In this document: piece after piece, positions 36,885 through 50,100 of the stretch
Layout of the letters: every line of letters starts with the position of its first letter
Position numbering within the stretch: the stretch's first letter is position 1
Assembly: GCF_040546815.1 (NCBI RefSeq)
Contig: NZ_JBEPOO010000001.1
Location: 2,666,001-2,730,000 of the forward strand
Direction: 5' to 3'
Source: Devosia sp. 2618
GTDB taxonomy: Bacteria > Pseudomonadota > Alphaproteobacteria > Rhizobiales > Devosiaceae
DNA length: 64,000 nt
Notes under the pieces: model-generated
The model's input: the letters and a program-made list of their open reading frames with translations, nothing else
The model's database searches: none
Told to the model about the DNA's origin: nothing
Position numbers and translations under genes: made by a program

Positions 36885-37031
36885 TACCCTCCCCCTTGAG
36901 GGGAGGGATCAAGGGTGGGGGTGAGTCAGGACCACCGGACTCGCGGAGAGATACCCCTTCCCTGCTCGATTCAACGGACTTAGCTGAAGCTAAGTCCTAT
37001 CTCACTTCCCTCCCCTCAAGGGGGAGGGTGG
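36885..37031. repeat. 147-bp composite palindromic element with internal stem (family A2)
   Basis: The ends ACCCTCCCCCTTGAGGGGAG and CTCCCCTCAAGGGGGAGGGT are complementary. Inside lies a perfect 10-bp stem GGACTTAGCT-GA-AGCTAAGTCC (36976-36997) and the shared words GACTCGCGGAGAGA and CCTTCCCTGCTCGAT. A close copy is at 43251-43395. It lies between glpD and glpK. Confidence 0.8.
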
Positions 37032-37067: not shown

Positions 37068-38555
37068 ATGAGCGACTACATTCTGGCGATCGACCAGGGG
37101 ACCACATCGAGCCGGGCTATTGTTTTCAACAAGGACCGCACGATTGCCGGCGTCGGCCAGAAGGAATTCACTCAGATTCTTCCGCGCGATGGCTGCGTGG
37201 AGCATGACCCGGAGGAAATCTGGGAGAGCGTGGTCTGGGCGGTGAAAAAGGCGCTCGCGGCGGCCAAGGTCGAGGGCAAGGACATTGCCGCGATCGGCAT
37301 TACCAACCAACGCGAGACGACGCTGATCTGGGACCGCAAAACCGGCAAGGCGATCCACAATGCTATTGTGTGGCAGGATCGGCGGACGGCGTCCCATTGC
37401 GCCAAGCTCAAGAAGACCGGGCACGAAAAGGTCGTGACCAAAAAGACCGGGCTGCTGCTCGACCCCTATTTCAGTGGCACCAAGGTCAAATGGCTGCTCG
37501 ACAATGTGAAGGGCGCGCGCAAGCGGGCCGAGAAGGGTGAGCTGGCTTTTGGGACGGTCGACAGCTTCCTGATCTGGCGGCTGACCGGTGGCAAGAGCCA
37601 TGTGACCGACGCGACCAATGCCGGGCGGACGCTGCTGTTCGATATCGGCAAGAACGCTTGGGACAAGGGCCTTCTGGAGCTGTTCGAGGTGCCGGCCGCG
37701 CTGCTGCCCGAGGTCAAGGATTGTGCGGCCGATTTTGGCGTCACGGACGAGAGCCTGTTTGGCGCGGCTATTCCGATTTTGGGCGTTGCGGGCGATCAGC
37801 ATGCGGCGACTATCGGGCAAGCGTGTTTTGAGCCGGGCATGTTGAAATCAACCTATGGCACGGGCTGCTTTGCGCTGCTCAATACCGGCAAGGACATGGT
37901 GCGCAGCAAGAACCGGCTGCTGACGACCATTGCGTACCGGCTCGATGGCAAGACGAGTTATGCGCTGGAAGGCTCGATCTTTATCGCGGGTGCGGCGGTG
38001 CAATGGATCCAGGATGGTCTGAAACTGGTGAAGAATGCCAGCGAAACCGGGCCTTTGGCGCAGACGGCCGACCCGAGCCAGAACGTTTATATGGTGCCCG
38101 CCTTTGTGGGTCTGGGCGCGCCGTGGTGGGATGCCGAGGCGCGGGGCGCAATCTATGGGCTGACGCGCAATTCGGGGCCGGCGGAAATCGCCAAGGCGGC
38201 GCTGGAAGCGGTTTGCTATCAGACGCGCGACCTGCTGGAGGCCATGCGCAAGGACTGGAAGGGCGGGCAGGACACGGTTTTGCGCGTCGATGGCGGCATG
38301 GTGGCTTCGGACTGGACCATGCAGTTTTTGGCAGATGTGCTGGATGCGCCGGTGGATCGACCGGTGATTTTGGAGACCACGGCGCTGGGGGCGGCTTGGC
38401 TGGCGGGATCGCGGGCCGGGGTGTGGCCGGGAATGGCAGAGTTTGCCAAGAGCTGGGCACGGGATCAGCGGTTTGAGCCGGTGATGGGGGCGAAGGAGCG
38501 CCGGGCGAAGATCAAGGGGTGGGATGTGGCGGTGCGGCGGACGTTGAGTGTTTGA
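37068..38555 (+). CDS. glpK: Glycerol kinase
   Basis: A 495-residue FGGY-family kinase phosphorylating glycerol to sn-glycerol 3-phosphate. [20 protein letters not shown] is the ATP phosphate-binding start. [28 protein letters not shown] (around 37309-37386) contains the family signature 1 area. [14 protein letters not shown] and [20 protein letters not shown] follow, then DGGMVASDW near the C-terminus. Length and order match E. coli GlpK. It supplies the substrate of GlpD encoded upstream. No glpF facilitator or glycerol ABC transporter is in the window. Confidence 0.96.
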
Positions 38556-42552: not shown

Positions 42553-43224
42553 ATGCGAATATTGCTCGTTGAAGACAATGAAGATCTGGGCGAGGCGATT
42601 GAAAAACGCCTGCGCAGCGCCGGTCATTCGGTGGAATGGGTGCGCGACGGCAATGACGTGGTTTCGGCCGCCGAGGGCGATGATTTCGATGCCGTAGCGC
42701 TCGACCTGATGCTGCCCAATCGGGATGGCATTTCGCTGATTGCCGAATTGCGGCGCCACAAGTTCAATGCGCCGATCCTGGTTATTACAGCCCGTTCGGA
42801 AATCGACGACAAGGTGAGCCTGCTCGATCTGGGCGCGGACGATTATCTGGTCAAGCCGTTCGACCTGCGCGAACTCGAAGCACGGCTGCGGGCGCTGATC
42901 CGGCGCACCGGCGGGCAGACCACAAGCACGCTGGGCGTGGGCAATCTCGAAATGGATCTGGCGGGGCTCAATGCGAGCGTCGAGGGACGCTCGCTGGAGC
43001 TGGGGCGGCGCGAATTCCGGCTGCTGGAAATCCTCGTCACCAATGCCGGCAAAGTGGTGCCCAAGGAGCGGCTGATGAACCAGTTGTTCAATTTCGATGA
43101 GGCGGTGTCGGTCAACGCGCTGGAGCTGCATATCTCGCGGCTGCGCAAGAAGCTGGAAGCGGCCAATATCGAGATCGGGACGGTGCGCGGGGTTGGCTAT
43201 GTGGTGCGGGCGCCGAATGGGTAG
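42553..43224 (+). CDS. OmpR/TctD-type response regulator
   Basis: A 223-residue response regulator. The receiver domain (1-115) has acidic pocket E7-D8, phospho-acceptor D51 (ALDLMLPNRDG), the Thr switch (VITARS) and the Lys in DYLVKPFD. A winged-helix DNA-binding domain of OmpR type follows (RREFRLLEILVTNAGKVVPK, and ELHISRLRKKLEAANIEIGT ending GVGYV). Start ATG 42553; longer in-frame starts upstream are not conserved in type. It is followed, after a 145-bp repeat, by the TctE-type kinase, so they form a two-component system. Targets may include tctCBA at 46.6-49.6 kb, by analogy with TctD. Confidence 0.93.
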   Translation: MRILLVEDNEDLGEAIEKRLRSAGHSVEWVRDGNDVVSAAEGDDFDAVALDLMLPNRDGISLIAELRRHKFNAPILVITARSEIDDKVSLLDLGADDYLVKPFDLRELEARLRALIRRTGGQTTSTLGVGNLEMDLAGLNASVEGRSLELGRREFRLLEILVTNAGKVVPKERLMNQLFNFDEAVSVNALELHISRLRKKLEAANIEIGTVRGVGYVVRAPNG

Positions 43225-43250
43225 CGGGATTTGGCCGCAACCACGAAGCG

Positions 43251-43395
43251 GTACCTCCCCCTTGATGGGGGAGGCTAGGTGGGGGTGGAGCCACAAGCGC
43301 CGGGTTCGCGGAGAGAGCCCCCCTTCCTGCTCGATCACGGACTTAGCTGAAGCTAAGTCCTATCTCGCTTCCCTCCCCTCAAGGGGGAGGGTGGG
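43251..43395. repeat. 145-bp composite palindromic element with internal stem (family A2)
   Basis: A close copy of the element at 36885-37031: ends ACCTCCCCCTTGATGGGGGA and CTCCCCTCAAGGGGGAGGGT, the same 22-base stem-loop GGACTTAGCT-GA-AGCTAAGTCC (43339-43360), and shared TTCGCGGAGAGAG and TTCCTGCTCGAT. It splits the response regulator and kinase genes. Confidence 0.8.
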
Positions 43396-43416
43396 CCCTG
43401 TGGTTGGGGTGCGATA

Positions 43417-45885
43417 GTGGCAGTTCCGCAGAAATCTTTCTCCATCCGCCGTCGCATCCTCGCGCTGGCGCTTGCCTTGCTGCTCGCGGCGGCGGTCATC
43501 CTGATCGTCTTTATCCGCGACTATGCCGAGCGGGCGGCGGATCGGGCGTTTGATCGGTTACTGGCGGCTTCGGCGCTGACGATTGCGGGTGCGGTGCAGG
43601 TGGAGGACGACAATGTGATCGTCGAACTGCCGTTCGCATCCTTCGGCATGTTTTCGGGGCGGGACCGGGTGTTTTATGCGGTCGAGACGCCGAATGGTCG
43701 GGCGGTGACTGGGTATGAAGACCTGTCGGCGACGCTGCCGGAGCTGACATCGGCAGGACCGGTTTTTGCCGATACGATGTATCGCGGCGAATTAGTGCGG
43801 GTGGCCAGCGTTGGGCGCCTGACCTCGTCGGGCGGCGATGCGGATTGGGTGACGATCCATGTGGCCGAAACCCAGAATGAGCGCGAGGCGCTGGCGGCGG
43901 AGATTTTGGGCAATGCCATTGTGCCGGTGGTGGCACTAACGCTGCTGGCGATTGCACTGGTGTGGTTTGGCATCGGGCGCATGTTTGCGCCGCTTTATCA
44001 GCTGGAACGCGAATTGCGCGGGCGGGCGCCCGATGATCTGAGCCCGGTGGATGTGCCGGTGCCGACCGAGGTGCGGCAGCTGGTGGCGGGGCTAAACGCC
44101 TTCATGGCGCGGTTGGGCAGCGCGATGGAACGGGTGAGCGGGCTGGTGGCCGAGGCGGCCCATGAAGTGCGGACGCCGCTGGCCTCGTTACGCGCTCAAG
44201 CGGAAGTGGCGATGGATGAGCAGGACCCTGAGGCGCTGCGGCGACGGGTGGGGCGCATTCATCAGGGCGCGATCCAGGCGAGCCAGCTGGTCAGCCAGTT
44301 GCTGATGGAAGCGACGATTACCCATCGCCTCGAAAATCAGGAAACGGACGCCACTGTGTTTGGCACGGTGGTGGACGAGGTGGTGCAGCGGCTGGACCCC
44401 GATCAGGCTGGGCGCGTGACGGCCAGCTTGCCCGAGGGCGTGGCGACGGCGCTGATCCGGGGCGACAGGGTGGCGCTGCGCGAGATGGTGCGCAATGTGG
44501 TGGACAATGCGCTGGTCTATTCGGACGGCCCGGTGCAGATCGGCGGCAGCGTGGGAGATGGCACGATGATGCTGACCGTCAGCGACCGGGGGCCGGGCAT
44601 TGCCGACGCGGAAAAGCCACTGGTGCTGGAGCGGTTCAAGCGCGGCGCGACGAGCGGGGCAAAGGCAGGGTCCGGGCTGGGACTATCCATCGTCAAGCGG
44701 GTGGCGGAGGCGCATGGTGGCGCGCTGCGGCTAACCGATCGCGCGGGTGGCGGGCTGGTGGTGGAGATTGACCTGCCGCTGGTGGGTCGCAATGCAAAGG
44801 TGGAGCAATTGCGCAAAGCCTTGGGGAGCCTCTCGGCGCTGGTGATCTGCGTGTTGCTGATCGATCCGCGTGGGGCGCAGGCGGCGACCTCGACCTATCC
44901 GGCACCCGATGGCAGCGCCGAAACGGTACTGACCATTGTGGGCACGACGGACACGCCGCTGTTTGCCGATTTCGTGGCCGGATTTCAGAGCCAGCGGCCC
45001 GACGTGACAGTGGAATATGACGAGCAGGATTCCCTGCCGATGTATGAGAATTTTCTGTCCGGCGTGATGGCGCCGCCAGACCTTTTGATCAGCTCGGCGG
45101 CGGACCTGCAGATCAAGCTGGCCAATGATGGCTATGCCACCGCCTATGACAGCCAGTGGCTGGGCGATCTGCCGGATTGGGCGCATTGGCGCAATGAGGT
45201 GTTTGGCTTCACCTTCGAGCCGGCGGTGATCATTTATAACCCCGACCGGATCAGCGCCGCCGAAGTGCCGCGCACGCATTTGACACTGGCGGAAATGCTG
45301 GAAACGCAGACCGAGCGGTTCCGGGGGCGGATTGCGACCTATGACATCGCGCTGAGTGGCGTAGGCTATCTGCTGGCGTCACAGGATCAGGTGATTTCGT
45401 CGAACTTCTGGCGGCTGGCGGCAGCTTTTGGGCGGGTCAATGCGCAGTTTTCGGGGTCGAGCCCGGCCATTCTCAACGGTGTGGCCGATGGATCGCTGTC
45501 ACTGGGCTACAATGTGCTGGGCTCCTATGCCTTCGCGCGCAAATCGGCTGGGGCCAATATCGAAATCGTGGTTCCCGATGACTATGTTCTGGTGCTGACG
45601 CGCTCGATGCTGATCCCGCGAGACGCCAAATTCCCCGACCTCGGCCGGGCGTTTGTTGACTTTGCGCTGTCGCCCAGTGGACAGGCGATTGCGGCGGGGC
45701 GAACGGCGCTTGGGTCGGTGGTGCGGGGCGCTGACGGCGAATGGACCAGCGAGGCGATTTCGGCGCGGGGGCGCGGCGTGATCCAGCCCATTCCGCTCGG
45801 GCCGGCGCTGATGGTGTCGCTCGACCAGCAGCGGCGCAGCCGTTTCCTTGAAAGCTGGGGCGAGATCGTCTCGCCCAAGCCATGA
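43417..45885 (+). CDS. TctE-type sensor histidine kinase fused to a periplasmic ABC-type solute-binding protein
   Basis: An 822-residue fusion, in order. Membrane helix 1 (about 10-33) and a 2CSK_N-type sensor segment (ADRAFDRLLAASALTIAGAV, then DRVFYAVETPNGRAVTGYEDL). Helix 2 (about 168-188), HAMP-like linker, and HisKA with H249 in AEAAHEVRTPLASL. HATPase with N-box VRNVVDNALVYS, G1 VSDRGPGIAD and G2 GSGLGLSIVK. All catalytic boxes are intact. After the ATPase comes a third hydrophobic stretch ending in AQA-A (about 466-489), which looks like a signal peptide. A complete FbpA/spermidine-type binding domain follows (490-822: TIVGTTDTPLFADFVAGFQS, PPDLLISSAADLQIK, YNVLGSYAFARK). The last domain must be periplasmic. 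Start GTG 43417. Related TctE kinases lack this domain. It pairs with the regulator encoded at 42553. Confidence 0.88.
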   Translation: MAVPQKSFSIRRRILALALALLLAAAVILIVFIRDYAERAADRAFDRLLAASALTIAGAVQVEDDNVIVELPFASFGMFSGRDRVFYAVETPNGRAVTGYEDLSATLPELTSAGPVFADTMYRGELVRVASVGRLTSSGGDADWVTIHVAETQNEREALAAEILGNAIVPVVALTLLAIALVWFGIGRMFAPLYQLERELRGRAPDDLSPVDVPVPTEVRQLVAGLNAFMARLGSAMERVSGLVAEAAHEVRTPLASLRAQAEVAMDEQDPEALRRRVGRIHQGAIQASQLVSQLLMEATITHRLENQETDATVFGTVVDEVVQRLDPDQAGRVTASLPEGVATALIRGDRVALREMVRNVVDNALVYSDGPVQIGGSVGDGTMMLTVSDRGPGIADAEKPLVLERFKRGATSGAKAGSGLGLSIVKRVAEAHGGALRLTDRAGGGLVVEIDLPLVGRNAKVEQLRKALGSLSALVICVLLIDPRGAQAATSTYPAPDGSAETVLTIVGTTDTPLFADFVAGFQSQRPDVTVEYDEQDSLPMYENFLSGVMAPPDLLISSAADLQIKLANDGYATAYDSQWLGDLPDWAHWRNEVFGFTFEPAVIIYNPDRISAAEVPRTHLTLAEMLETQTERFRGRIATYDIALSGVGYLLASQDQVISSNFWRLAAAFGRVNAQFSGSSPAILNGVADGSLSLGYNVLGSYAFARKSAGANIEIVVPDDYVLVLTRSMLIPRDAKFPDLGRAFVDFALSPSGQAIAAGRTALGSVVRGADGEWTSEAISARGRGVIQPIPLGPALMVSLDQQRRSRFLESWGEIVSPKP

Positions 45886-46092
45886 CACCCATGCACCCAA
45901 CGCATGGATTAGCCCTTGGTCGTAGCGATTTTGCCCATTTGGGGTGAATATTGTGGTTAGCGCCGCGTTAATTGCATTGAGCGCATGGCTGCGATGAGGT
46001 TTGCGGCCTAGCAAAACAAAGGCATTGGCCCCATCTGTCTACTCATGAAAGCGGCCCGGCAATTCGGTTGGGCCTTTTGAGGACCTGGACAA

Positions 46093-46263
46093 ATGAGCAC
46101 CCCCCGCAAGTCGATCTTTGCGACCCTTGGCACCTTCGTTGAAGTGTTCGGCAGCGCTGCTGCCGTCTCCAACGCCGTCGAGGCTGGGCGTACTCCAAAG
46201 GCCAAGCACCTCAAGGCCCTCGGTATCGATGCCGACGCTTTCCGTTCGATCGGCAAGCGCTAA
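46093..46263 (+). CDS. Small basic hypothetical protein
   Basis: A 56-residue protein, ATG 46093, preceded by GAGGA 9 bases upstream. MSTPRKSIFATLGTFVEVFG is followed by an Ala-rich helix and LKALGIDADAFRSIGKR. Net charge is basic, with no signal and no clear membrane helix. A strong intrinsic terminator follows 64 bases after the stop, so it is a separate short transcript. The 206-base gap before it (45886-46092) should hold its promoter; nothing else was recognised there. Function unknown. Confidence 0.68.
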   Translation: MSTPRKSIFATLGTFVEVFGSAAAVSNAVEAGRTPKAKHLKALGIDADAFRSIGKR

Positions 46264-46327
46264 AGTCTCCTTGGCTTAGGGCGCCGCACCCTCCGCGACC
46301 TGAGCCGCGCTATCGATTGACGTGAGA

Positions 46328-46373
46328 AAGCCCGGATGCCCTGAACAGGGGCATCCGGGCTTTTGCTTTTTTG
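46328..46373 (+). terminator. Intrinsic terminator
   Basis: A 14-bp perfect stem AAGCCCGGATGCCC / GGGCATCCGGGCTT with a 7-base loop, followed by TTTTGCTTTTTT. It ends the transcript of the small gene at 46093. Confidence 0.93.
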
Positions 46374-46388
46374 GAGTGTATGTCTGGT

Positions 46389-46470
46389 CGTCACTACCCG
46401 GCTTGTCCGGGTGATCCATCGTTCAGCGCGTGCTGCGATATGGATTGCCCGGACAAGCCGGGCAATGACG
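46389..46470. repeat. 82-bp REP-like palindrome (family B)
   Basis: ACTACCCGGCTTGTCCGGGT at the left and GCCCGGACAAGCCGGGCAAT at the right, homologous to the element at 40535-40615. Confidence 0.75.
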
Positions 46471-46491
46471 GGGGGTGGAGGCTTTGGTTGC

Positions 46492-46580
46492 CCGACCTCG
46501 CCCTTCGACGGACTGAGGATGAGGTCTACTGCTGAATCAACAGTAGACCTCATGGTGAGCTTGTCGAACCACGAGGGGGT
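46492..46580. repeat. Family C intergenic palindrome
   Basis: GACCTCGCCCTTCGACGGAC at the left, and GTAGACCTCATGGTGAGCTT with GTCGAACCACGAGG at the right. The inner part has a perfect CTACTG/CAGTAG stem. It follows the tctA stop on the minus strand. Confidence 0.7.
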
Positions 46581-46585
46581 GACCC

Positions 46586-48133
46586 CTAGTCTTCGTCGCT
46601 TGCGAGTTGGCCCAGGACCTGACCCTTGCCGCAGAGGCGGAAGTAGACGGGGACGAGGACTACGGCGGCGGCCAGCACATAGAGTGTGATGGCAATGGGC
46701 GAGTGGAACAGGATCAGCGGGTCACCCTGGCTGATTGCCAGTGCACGGCGGAGCTGTTGTTCGGCCATGGGGCCAAGGATCAGCCCGACCACCACCGGGG
46801 CAATCGGATAGCCGAAGCGGCGCAGCAGATAGCCCAGCACACCAAACACCAGCAGCAGCATCAACTCGAACGAAAAGCGGATGCCAAAGATATTGCCCGA
46901 CATGGCGCCATTGGCACCCAGCGTGCCGAGCGTCGCGAACACCAGAATGCCGCCATAGAGCCATGGCTTTGGAATGGTCAGCAGCTTCACCCACAGCCCG
47001 ATCAGCGGCAGATTGAGCACGATCAGCATGAAGTTGGCGACGAGCAGGCTGGCGATCAGCGCCCAGACGAGGCTTGCATTGTTGGTGAACAGCAATGGGC
47101 CGGGCTGAAGGCCAAACTGCTGGAAACCGGCCAGCATGATGGCGGCGGTTGCCGTGGTGGGCAGGCCCAGCGTCAGCAGCGGCACGAGCGTACCGGCAGC
47201 AGACGCGTTGTTGGCCGCTTCCGGCCCCGCGACACCTTCGATGGCGCCGTGGCCGAACTCTTCGGGACGCTTGGCGAAGGTCTTTTCGGCGCTGTAGGAC
47301 AGGAAGCTCGAGACGTCGGCGCCGCCCGCCGGCATTGCGCCGATGGGGAAGCCGATGGCCGTGCCGCGCAGCCACGGAACCCAGCTGCGCTTCCAGTCTT
47401 CCTTGGTCATCCAGACCGAGCCCTTGACCGCCAGAACCCCTTCGTTGACCGCAGAACGGTCCGAAGCGATCTTGAGCGTTTCGCCGATGGCGAACAGCGC
47501 CACGGCAAGGGTGGTGACCTCGATGCCGTCGAGCAGATCGGGAATACCGAAGGACATGCGGGCCTGACCGGTCTGCAGGTCGATGCCAATAATGCCAAGA
47601 CCCAGACCGATGAACAGTGCCGTCAGACCACGCAGCGCGCTATCGCCAAAGGCGGCGGATACGGTGACGAAGGCCAGCACCATCAGGGCGAAATATTCGG
47701 CTGGACCGAAGGCCAGCGCGAATTTGACGACCCATGGCGCGACGAAGGCCAGCGCCAGCGTCGCGATCAAACCAGCAACGAACGAGCCGATGGCGGCGGT
47801 AGCCAAAGCGGGTCCGCCCCTGCCCTTGCGGGCCATTTTGTTGCCTTCGAGCGCGGTAACGATCGAGGCGCTTTCGCCCGGCGTGTTGAGCAGGATGGAG
47901 GTGGTGGAGCCGCCATACATGCCGCCGTAGTAGATGCCGGCAAACATGATGAGCGAGCCGGCCGGATCGAGCTTGTAGGTAACCGGCAGCAGCAGCGCCA
48001 CGGTGAGCGCGGGGCCAATGCCGGGCAGCACGCCAACGGCCGTGCCGAGCGTTACGCCGACCAGCGCATAGAGCAGGTTCTGCCACTGCAGTGCAGCGAC
48101 AAGGCCCTGGGCCAGAAGTCCGAAAGTGTCCAT
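46586..48133 (-). CDS. tctA: Tripartite tricarboxylate transporter, large membrane subunit
   Basis: A 515-residue TctA protein with about 11-12 membrane helices. [25 protein letters not shown] is the first conserved glycine-rich segment. [21 protein letters not shown] is the family signature, and [26 protein letters not shown] is the second. It forms the carboxylate channel with TctB and takes substrate from TctC. The gene is last in the tctC-tctB-tctA order, 15 bases after tctB. Carboxylate substrate (citrate, glutarate, terephthalate and others in the family) is not determinable. Confidence 0.95.
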
Positions 48134-48148
48134 GTCAGGGTCTTCCGA

Positions 48149-48634
48149 TCAGGGAATGAGACGTTCGATGGGACCGGCTGGCAGCGACAGCTGCAGGCCC
48201 TTGGCAAAGGCGATCCAGACGATGAACGCAAACAGCGCACCGGCAGGAATGGTCTTCCACAGGGGGCCGCGCCCAAAACCCTTGGCGGTGAACGCAAACA
48301 GCACGCCCGTGGCGATGGAGAAGCCGGTCGTCGAGAGCAGCAGGATCTGGCCGATCAGCCCACCCAGAATCCACAGCATCGGGATGTAGTTGTCGTTGGT
48401 CCGCTCCGGAAAGCCATTGCGCAGGGCCGAAAACACCGTGCCGATGGCGAGCAGGATCAGGGCGCCCGCGATGATGTAAGGAAACACCGTGGGGCCGACG
48501 CGTGCCTGGATCGGGGGGACGCGCATCTGGCTGGTCTGCCAGATGATCACCGCCGCGATGCCAGCCAGAATGGCCGCTATGACAAGCGCCGCCCCATCGG
48601 GGCGGCGCGAGAGATTTGGTTGGCCGGAGCTCAT
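48149..48634 (-). CDS. tctB: Tripartite tricarboxylate transporter, small membrane subunit
   Basis: A 161-residue protein with four predicted helices, the usual TctB topology: AALVIAAILAGIAAVIIW, PTVFPYIIAGALILLAIG with the family-typical R-V-G-P-x-x-F-P, PMLWILGGLIGQILLL and a final AGALFAFIVWIAFA. The start overlaps the tctC stop by 4 bases (ATGA). It stabilises TctA in the inner membrane. Confidence 0.92.
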   Translation of the reverse strand: MSSGQPNLSRRPDGAALVIAAILAGIAAVIIWQTSQMRVPPIQARVGPTVFPYIIAGALILLAIGTVFSALRNGFPERTNDNYIPMLWILGGLIGQILLLSTTGFSIATGVLFAFTAKGFGRGPLWKTIPAGALFAFIVWIAFAKGLQLSLPAGPIERLIP

Positions 48635-49575
48635 TGGACGAGGCCAATGTCTTTCAGGATGGTTTCAGTGGCGGCGGTGTCAGCAGCGAGCTGAGCATCG
48701 AACGCGTCACCGGCGAGGTAGGTGTTGACCCAGCCCTTGGTCTCAAGCGTTGCCTTCCAGGCGTCGGAATTGACCATCTTTTCGATGTCGGCCGAGATCG
48801 CAGCCTTCTGCTCGGCAGTGATGCCGGGGGCAGCGGCAACCATGCGCCAGTTCTGCAGCGCCATATCGACGCCAGCTTCACGCAGGGTCGGTGCGTCAAC
48901 GCCGGGGATGCGCTCGTCGCTGGAAACAGCGAGCAGACGCAGTTCGCCCGCAGCGATCTGGCTGGAGAACTCGGAGTAGCCCGAGATACCCACAGTCACC
49001 TGGCCGCCGAGAAGGGCTGCGAGAGCTTCGCCACCGCCCGAATAGGCGATGTAGTTGACGGTGGTTGGATCGACACCAACGGTCTTGGCGATGAGGCCAG
49101 CCGTGATGTGGTCGGCGCCACCAGCCGAGCCACCAGCCCACGAAACCGAACCGGCATCGGCCTTGAGCTTGGTGATCAGGTCGTCGAGGGTCTTGAGCTC
49201 GGACGCGGCTGGCACGACGATGACCACGGATTCACCGGTCAGACGAGCGATCGGGGTAACCTGCTCGAGGGTAACCGGGGATGCGTTGGTGAGGATTGCG
49301 CCGACCATCACGTAGCCGCCAACGATGAGTGCGTTTGGATTGCCTTCTTCCTGATTGACGAACTGGGCAAGGCCAATGGTGCCACCAGCGCCGGGAACGT
49401 TGGTGACCTGCACATTGCCCGAGATGCCGTCGGCCTGAAGGGCTTCCTGCATCGAGCGGGCCGTCTGGTCCCATCCGCCGCCGGGGGCAGCAGGCGCCAT
49501 GATGGTATAGTCAGCGGCAAAAGCGGGGACAGCCATTGCGCCAGACAGCAGCGCAGCCAAGAACAGCTTATTCAT
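48631..49575 (-). CDS. tctC: Tripartite tricarboxylate transporter, periplasmic binding protein
   Basis: A 314-residue secreted TctC/Bug-type protein. Start ATG 49575 with GGGAGG 5 bases upstream; a TTG-started version 4 codons longer is unlikely. The signal peptide ends AFA-A. The mature protein starts DYTIMAPAAPGGGWDQTARSM, the conserved first ligand loop of TctC proteins, followed by VPGAGGTIGLAQFV and SWAGGSAGGADHITAGLIA. It binds the carboxylate and feeds TctA/TctB. It is the first gene of the operon, and the two-component system at 42.5-45.9 kb is a plausible regulator. Confidence 0.94.
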   Translation of the reverse strand: MNKLFLAALLSGAMAVPAFAADYTIMAPAAPGGGWDQTARSMQEALQADGISGNVQVTNVPGAGGTIGLAQFVNQEEGNPNALIVGGYVMVGAILTNASPVTLEQVTPIARLTGESVVIVVPAASELKTLDDLITKLKADAGSVSWAGGSAGGADHITAGLIAKTVGVDPTTVNYIAYSGGGEALAALLGGQVTVGISGYSEFSSQIAAGELRLLAVSSDERIPGVDAPTLREAGVDMALQNWRMVAAAPGITAEQKAAISADIEKMVNSDAWKATLETKGWVNTYLAGDAFDAQLAADTAATETILKDIGLVQ

Positions 49576-50100
49576 AAGTCCTCCCATGTAAAATCCTGAA
49601 CGTCGTTGCGTCCGTGGGAGGAACCATAGGCTCGGTCCCTGTCACCGTCCTGTCATGGGGGCGGGAGTTTTGAGGTGCGGATACTGCACGCGAAGCTGCG
49701 GGTTTCCGGTGGCGCCAAGGCTTGGGGAGCCCTTGCCGATCAACTTGTCGACAAGATCGCATTAGACTTTAGTCGGATCCCCCCTACCCCACACTGCCTA
49801 AAAGACAGGACCGTTGTCATAAAACCAAGCAATTTCCAGTGTCTGGCAGCGACTCCGTCAGCGGCGGGAATTGGCTTTATGTGTTTGACTGACCAAGAAA
49901 AACTACATCCGCGCGTCTTGCTAGCGGAGTTCGGGCGTCTTATCGTCCGGGCCGGAGGATAGCTGAAAGTTAGGCCAGCAGATTGCGACACTATATGTGT
50001 TGACGGACTGACGGCCTTTGGGCTTTCCACGGTGACCGCACGGGCGGGCGGCGTGTTGTCTATGTTGCGCGTGAAAGCGCATTAATCAGGAGTATTCAAC
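49576..50100. other. 525-base divergent intergenic region, tctC / pseudoazurin
   Basis: No convincing gene was found. It must contain the tctCBA and pseudoazurin promoters. Near 49986-49998 there is ACAC-TATAT-GTGT, an almost symmetric motif about 100 bases before the pseudoazurin start. Closer to that start, GCGC-GTGAAA-GCGC (50068-50081) is a short inverted repeat. Neither matches a regulator class I can name with confidence. Confidence 0.4.

Follow-up and report, generated by a model that had tools for sequence, protein, structure and literature searches.

Does a bacterial gene that encodes a sensor histidine kinase and a solute-binding protein (SBP) in one open frame yield one protein or two, and what would the binding protein do for the kinase? 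This question is raised by a locus of Devosia sp. 2618 within a window of 64,000 nucleotides (the whole stretch of DNA analysed, positions 2,666,001 to 2,730,000 of contig NZ_JBEPOO010000001.1; coordinates below are those of the window). Nucleotides 43417-45885 of the forward strand translate from a GTG start, without a stop, into 822 residues. An initial annotation, which was made from the sequence alone, had described this frame as an intact TctE-type kinase that continues into a signal-peptide-like segment ending AQA-A and then into a complete solute-binding domain, and each part of that description held. Pfam matches, all above their gathering cut-offs, place 2CSK_N at residues 22-163 (3.4e-35), HisKA at 242-302, HATPase_c at 349-455 and the families SBP_bac_11, SBP_bac_1, SBP_bac_6 and SBP_bac_8 at about 513-773. 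Among 40 aligned fused proteins, of which the first is that of the window, H249, N364, D390/G392/G394 and G418/G420/G422 are invariant and N360 is nearly so, which indicates that the kinase boxes are intact. The kinase (residues 1-455) is followed by about ten residues, the basic pair R466/K467, a hydrophobic stretch, D-P, small residues and A487-Q488-A489; the segment GRNAKVEQLRKALGSLSALVICVLLIDPRGAQA is present directly ahead of A490, which places the -1 Ala of the presumed cut at residue 489. A location of the kinase core inside the cytoplasm and of the SBP outside it, as the annotation had also proposed, follows from this domain anatomy. Ordinary TctE proteins stop after the ATPase domain, whereas the window kinase runs on into the SBP for another 367 residues, 333 of them after the presumed cut, and the protein is therefore a variant of the TctE-type kinase. 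The parts of the gene are as follows.

43417-45885, + strand: fused gene for a TctE-type histidine kinase, an internal signal peptide and an SBP, 822 residues (translation, Pfam and genus search)
43480-43905, + strand: 2CSK_N sensor region of the kinase, residues 22-163 (Pfam PF08521, with the E-value given above)
44140-44322, + strand: HisKA, with the phospho-acceptor H249 at 44161-44163 (Pfam; H249 invariant in alignments)
44461-44781, + strand: HATPase_c, residues 349-455, with the N, G1 and G2 boxes (Pfam and alignment)
44782-44883, + strand: linker and putative internal signal peptide, residues 456-489, with a basic n-region (R466/K467), a hydrophobic core at about 468-482 and a c-region ending A487-Q488-A489 (conservation at -1 and -3; pLDDT)
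44884-45882, + strand: predicted mature SBP, residues 490-822, starting directly after the cleavage site (Pfam SBP_bac families, 3c9h and MctA matches, pLDDT)

The fusion proved to be common within the genus. Among 75 Devosia genomes searched, 63 contain a match at 1e-55 or better, and 53, the window's own included, encode an uninterrupted full-length fusion at 69-100% identity. The ten other matched genomes comprise two with frame breaks (G010 and G256), two in which the gene is cut by contig ends (G259 and G265), two with separate SBP and kinase genes (G003 and G264) and four with only distant unfused relatives (G019, G024, G223 and G262). The breaks in the fused-gene copies of G010 (locus L117) and G256 (locus L116) lie inside the kinase half and reflect either sequencing error or real decay. 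A second, distant fused copy occurs in G020 and G261 (35-39% identity), and the fusion is also found in three of five genomes of family f50 and two of three of family f45, at about 57% identity. Within the window's own genome, the fused gene matches itself at full length and none of the 19 other matches covers the SBP. The open frame could in principle be a sequencing or assembly artefact, and the annotation had allowed for a missed stop or frameshift near 44800-44890; the same fusion is carried by independent genomes and metagenomes, with uninterrupted copies in many of them, and we reject this explanation as next to inconceivable. The fusion gene is real, and many related bacteria have retained it.

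A sample of 199 genomes from the order gave an SBP match at 1e-20 in 51, of which nine are fused (again counting the window's genome) and 42 are not. Five of these 42 have frames of more than 600 aa, which on checking were separate genes, and the rest have frames of at most 548 aa, too short for a fusion. Separate genes are the rule among distant relatives; the possibility that all close relatives encode the two parts separately, which the annotation had named, is contradicted by the fusions in close relatives. Protein databases were also searched with the SBP half, considering proteins of about 0.55-1.75 times the query length and about 8000 best candidates, and three overlapping sets were obtained (the best 120 of 639 matches, 70 of 70 and the best 120 of 620). 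Among the matches listed, the first search found Devosia and Pelagibacterium; the second, Thalassospira, Pelagibacterium lentulum, Martelella, Tropicimonas, Alsobacter and Achromobacter; and the third, Labrys, Pseudoxanthobacter, Inquilinus, Mesorhizobium and one record named Mycobacterium sp. KBS0706. The fused family spans other alphaproteobacteria, the class of Devosia, and some betaproteobacteria, to which Achromobacter belongs, and its members are named in the database both as 'sensor histidine kinase' and as 'extracellular solute-binding protein'. The statement that ordinary TctE kinases lack such a domain is correct for ordinary TctE, but a large fused family stands beside them.

The next question is whether the junction resembles a signal peptidase site; the annotation had left direct sensing and cleavage side by side. 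Across 59 distinct fused genes, the -1 position is Ala without exception and is encoded by all four Ala codons (26 GCG, 19 GCC, 9 GCA and 5 GCT), and the -3 position is A, T, V, S or G in 57 (A 43, T 6, V 5, S 2, P 2, G 1). Columns 455-493 are otherwise variable, the next best column reaching 43 of 59, and conservation increases once more at YPA in the mature SBP (55, 55 and 57 of 59 at residues 494-496). An invariant -1 Ala amid variable columns is as expected of a signal peptidase I site under selection, and the basic n-region, hydrophobic core, small -3 residue and -1 Ala of such sites are all found here. The hydrophobic segment, counted from the last basic residue to the -1 Ala, has a median length of 23 residues (range 21-31). 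The control was TM1, which runs through the membrane in the orientation of the junction segment. In a database set of 214 full-length proteins (226 fetched, 12 shorter than 760 aa dropped), a strict A-x-A follows shortly after the hydrophobic core in 156, compared with 22 after TM1 of those proteins and 82 expected from shuffled tails.

An AlphaFold model of the fused protein, made with a 40-row alignment, gave a mean pLDDT of 85.2 and a pTM of 0.65. The sensor region with its two helices (TM1 and TM2) and the SBP from residue 491 lie mostly above 90, and the cytoplasmic kinase is partly lower (48-75 around residues 200-310 and about 60 around 401-420). Residues 458-489 fall below 50, and a confident fold resumes at about 490, just past the predicted cut; as soft evidence, this would suit a signal peptide that is removed more than a transmembrane helix that stays. 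Taken together, the -1/-3 pattern, the low-confidence junction and the split relatives described below, in which the SBP has its own signal peptide, favour predicted cleavage between AQA and A over an attached SBP, and so favour one of the annotation's two options without proving it. The two are not strictly exclusive, as a cleaved SBP could still be the sensor of the kinase.

The history of the fusion was examined with quick trees of hand-picked rows from the loci and database matches, 77 for the SBP part and 68 for the kinase part; their root is not known, and the SBP tree has long branches. Left out of the kinase tree were G220, G107 and G046, whose short loci hold no kinase, and G104, G064, G094, G052, G067 and G210, whose short loci reach over only part of one. 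Both trees contain a clade I (SH-aLRT 91 for the SBP and 99 for the kinase) of fusions from Devosia, f50/Labrys, f45/Pseudoxanthobacter, Inquilinus, Alsobacter and Achromobacter, and the separate genes of G003 and G264 nest inside it. Clade II consists of the distant copies of G020 and G261, Thalassospira, Martelella and others, and it contains the split pair of G262, whose kinase and SBP genes share an ATGA overlap and whose SBP carries a signal peptide of its own. One branch of the kinase tree (SH-aLRT 95) consists of all fused rows and the three split pairs (G003, G264 and G262). The same one-clade topology is not rejected by the SBP data (p-AU 0.755), a clade of fused rows alone is rejected in both data sets, and the unconstrained SBP tree needs four changes between fused and split. 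The simplest reading of these trees, which is not proof, would be a single fusion that was long kept and was undone at least twice. In G003 and G264 (loci L138 and L139), the order is regulator, SBP, kinase, with the SBP gene between the other two and having its own start and signal peptide. A separately exported SBP thus replaces the fused one in these genomes, which argues that the fused SBP also ends up separate. The C-terminal tail of the kinase in these two genomes, which reads GRSAVNKLLADAGKRLS in G003, resembles the start of the fused linker; it is possibly a remnant of the fusion.

The SBP half belongs, by sequence and by fold, with the MctA/3c9h-type binding proteins. Its sequence matches Agrobacterium tumefaciens 3c9h at 1.9e-69 and MctA entries at about 2e-41 to 4e-40, and sequence and structure searches gave 3c9h (37% identity) and the metal-citrate-binding MctA (32%) as its nearest relatives, with TM-scores on the target of 0.86-0.92. 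Searches of open-licence papers turned up none on MctA, and a list of residues mutated in it was taken from PDB titles: S26, D28, S79, S164, T199 and Y221 correspond to T510, D512, S560, S647, S682 and Y704, and a single offset suits all six. Four of these are identical in the window SBP and two are Ser/Thr swaps.

44950-45528, + strand: equivalents of the MctA-mutated positions, D512, S560, S647, S682 and Y704, with the varying T510 just upstream (alignment of fused proteins)

Among the 186 fused proteins outside clade II, a set that includes the window's protein and P0172 (which the SBP tree places in neither clade), D512 is retained in 182, S560 in 184, S647 in 186, S682 in 184 and Y704 in 184, and position 510 is variable. 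Thirty split relatives largely retain the residues as well (D512 in 30, S560 in 29, Y704 in 29 and S647 in 24). In the 28 clade II proteins, they are mostly replaced, with Asp in place of S647 in all 28. From their having been mutated in MctA, we infer that these residues line the pocket, and the pattern fits a ligand like citrate in clade I and another ligand in clade II, each of which would suit the respective neighbour genes.

Those neighbours are, on the two sides of the fused gene:

42553-43224, + strand: OmpR-type response regulator, likely partner of the kinase (Response_reg and Trans_reg_C; linkage in loci)
46586-49587, - strand: tctCBA tripartite tricarboxylate transporter, convergent with the fused gene and its probable target operon (Pfam TctA, TctB and TctC)

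The locus resembles TctD/TctE systems in its kinase domains, the OmpR-type regulator upstream and the adjoining tctCBA, in which TctC is a separate gene (48631-49587). The 20 wide loci were picked among loci in which a match was already known, and each of them has regulator, kinase and SBP together, whether fused or split. The transporter genes adjoin nine of ten clade I fusions in these wide loci, both secondary splits (G003 and G264) and three of six other split systems, one of which matches TctA and TctC only weakly. A set of 40 Devosia loci with flanks of 1.5 kb, which includes the broken G010 copy, shows TctA in 33 and the regulator in 38. In contrast to clade I, the two clade II fusions examined, L136 and L137, adjoin an ABC transporter that comprises its own Phosphonate-bd SBP, an ABC ATPase and a permease in which two transport domains are recognised. 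The fused SBP therefore occurs beside transporters that have a binding protein of their own, a pattern that a receptor would be expected to show.

The gap between regulator and kinase (43232-43412) contains a repeat whose ends are inverted and which encloses a palindrome of 22 bases (arms at 43339-43348 and 43351-43360). This repeat has 59 matches in the genome, of which 18, itself included, share 78-100% identity across about 84-181 bases (scores were computed for 40 of 95 first-look candidates). It resembles a small mobile, non-coding repeat, and it may affect co-transcription of regulator and kinase in this strain. A second copy in the window (36888-37031, 84% identity) lies just upstream of an open reading frame at 37068, which by its sequence appears to encode a glycerol kinase.

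Starting from the fusion, its conservation, the AxA-type motif, the SBP fold, the pocket-equivalent residues and the gene linkage, all of which were observed, we consider it probable that the gene encodes a precursor that signal peptidase I cuts into a kinase and a free SBP, the latter reporting a citrate-like ligand to a kinase that controls tctCBA. Cleavage, docking, ligand identity and tctCBA regulation are what we infer, in the following order of events. The kinase part would insert into the membrane through two transmembrane helices that flank the 2CSK_N sensor region, leaving the catalytic core in the cytoplasm, and on continued translation the internal signal peptide would send the C-terminal 333 residues through the Sec pathway. 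Signal peptidase I would then cut after A489, so that the kinase would keep a membrane stub and the SBP would be released as a soluble periplasmic protein in one-to-one supply. This SBP would be a dedicated sensor, separate from the transport SBP, that binds a citrate-like, perhaps metal-citrate, ligand, docks on the 2CSK_N domain and sets the state of the kinase. The kinase would in turn act through the OmpR-type regulator (42553-43224) on the neighbouring tctCBA, a last step suggested by the linkage and by precedent.

Several points weigh against this proposal. It rests throughout on comparison. A looser motif rule is satisfied at 212 of 214 junctions, compared with 55 after TM1 and 185 in shuffles, and discriminates poorly because the region is Ala-rich. 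Six proteins (P0168, P0169, P0170, P0173, P0174 and P0175, three of them named Achromobacter) have a long Ala/Pro-rich low-complexity stretch right after the presumed cut, which could be a flexible tail or a tether. A loose start rule asks for an in-frame ATG, GTG or TTG that precedes the cut by 18-36 residues and is followed by an n-region of net positive charge; by this rule, a separate SBP start is conceivable in 41 of 59 fused genes, namely all 22 of the window's subclade and 19 of the 37 remaining ones. No tctCBA was seen at the fused relative L129 in its wide locus, nor TctA in seven of the 40 loci with only 1.5 kb flanks, and the split SBP loci G220, G107 and G046 show no kinase within 1.5 kb flanks, so that linkage is not universal at that range. 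Finally, an SBP-kinase interaction was tested in adjacent pairs for AgtS and AruS of Pseudomonas aeruginosa and none was found (PMC11113362).

Two other accounts concern the fate of the SBP. It may stay attached, with the third hydrophobic segment as a permanent anchor and the SBP as a tethered sensor domain at the end opposite to that of usual sensor domains. The segment is long enough to span the membrane, and the stretch in P0168-type proteins could serve as the tether; however, without cleavage the invariant -1 Ala and the nearly always small -3 residue are difficult to account for, a strict AxA is rare after the equally oriented TM1, the junction is not modelled as a stable helix, and split versions nest among fused ones, all of which leave an attached SBP unlikely. 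A somewhat smaller chance still is given to the account in which the SBP of the window's subclade arises mostly by separate translation that starts at an internal TTG or ATG, the long frame being partly a by-product of an in-frame overlapping gene. The candidate start is:

44809-44811, + strand: in-frame TTG at residue 465, possible internal SBP start in the window's subclade (codon counts, suggestive only)

In the 22 closest fused genes, the window's included, codon 465 is TTG in 14, ATG in seven and CTG in one, and it ranks first of 88 Leu-rich columns for TTG use; in the window, AAGGTGGAG lies just upstream. An extra start at this codon in the subclade is thus possible. On the other hand, Shine-Dalgarno-like pairing before codon 465 was not found in nine of the 22 genes, and two other Leu columns reach 17 and 15 TTG of 22, so that one such column may be chance. 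Outside the subclade, the positions that pass the loose rule differ from gene to gene and 18 of 37 genes (18 of all 59) have no in-frame start by it. We reject a conserved internal start for the family as a whole, and in at least those 18 genes export depends on the fusion, because no start could give a separate signal peptide.

Another account has the SBP serve an ABC importer, with its fusion to the kinase having no signalling role. Its nearest solved relatives are indeed described as ABC-transporter SBPs. MctA and 3c9h resemble the window SBP in fold, in sequence (32-37% identity) and in the equivalents of the mutated residues, but they are stand-alone proteins described as parts of ABC transporters, whereas the window SBP is fused to a kinase and no ABC permease lies between the regulator and tctCBA. 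The recognised genes at 42553-49587 are the regulator, the fused gene and tctABC, without a permease and ATPase that would belong to the SBP, and the nearest ABC permease in the window (50892) neighbours another SBP of NMT1 type. Further against an importer are the joint presence of regulator, kinase and SBP in every wide locus, the TctC that the window's tctCBA already has and the Phosphonate-bd SBP of the ABC transporter at the two clade II loci, and we regard this account as very improbable.

How does the proposed precursor compare with known systems? FbcH of Bradyrhizobium is a cytochrome b/c1 precursor in which a membrane protein and an exported protein are made as one and separated at an internal signal-peptide site. 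FbcH belongs to a respiratory complex, not to a sensor, and searches of open-licence papers for this precursor did not turn it up. In BvgS and EvgS, the SBP domains precede the catalytic core. These kinases have SBP (Venus flytrap) domains in their periplasmic region (PMC8534201) and are alike in holding an SBP fold within the kinase polypeptide, but their tandem SBP domains form the periplasmic sensor region, whereas the window SBP lies not ahead of the catalytic core but at the C terminus behind its own export signal. The closest experimentally tested precedent is that of Bordetella pertussis, in which the SBP BctC is needed together with a two-component system (kinase BctE) for citrate induction of a tctCBA-type operon (PMC5812351), which is alike in requiring an extracytoplasmic SBP for citrate signalling. 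BctC, however, is the transporter's own TctC-type SBP and a separate gene, whereas the SBP here comes from another family (3c9h/MctA), is distinct from TctC and is fused to the kinase. Many SBP-activated kinases are encoded beside their SBP gene (PMC11113362). A 2015 survey of Azospirillum two-component systems tallied SBP_bac_1 as an uncommon input domain of classic kinases, with 2CSK_N in the same table (PMC4618731), and the combination of kinase and SBP_bac_1 has therefore been counted before. It may be the same domain combination; in the accessible parts of that survey, it is counted as an input domain, and order, topology and cleavage are not described (PMC4618731). Searches of the open-licence literature turned up no account of this architecture or its cleavable junction, so that its absence in print is not established. 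SBP-dependent sensing is already known from BctC/BctE, and the fused, C-terminal, apparently cleavable SBP is a new variation on it.

For the family as a whole, we lean, by a little, towards the view that these genes encode widespread proteobacterial sensor polyproteins, in which a kinase and its own receptor come from one gene and would be split by the housekeeping signal peptidase in one-to-one supply, with at least two ligand classes (citrate-like beside tctCBA, and another pocket beside ABC transporters of the Phosphonate-bd kind) and with re-splitting at least twice. If this is true, a bacterial sensor would have its two halves separated by signal peptidase, and the labels 'sensor histidine kinase' and 'extracellular solute-binding protein' would each be half right, provided that cleavage is confirmed. 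Signalling from SBP to kinase is suspected for many gene pairs whose partners are usually guessed from their neighbourhood, whereas a natural fusion points directly to both and offers a ready system for how an SBP talks to a 2CSK_N domain. The finding may also mean that SBPs annotated as transport proteins act as receptors, and in clade II the fused receptor may reveal the ligand of the adjoining ABC transporter (L136 and L137).

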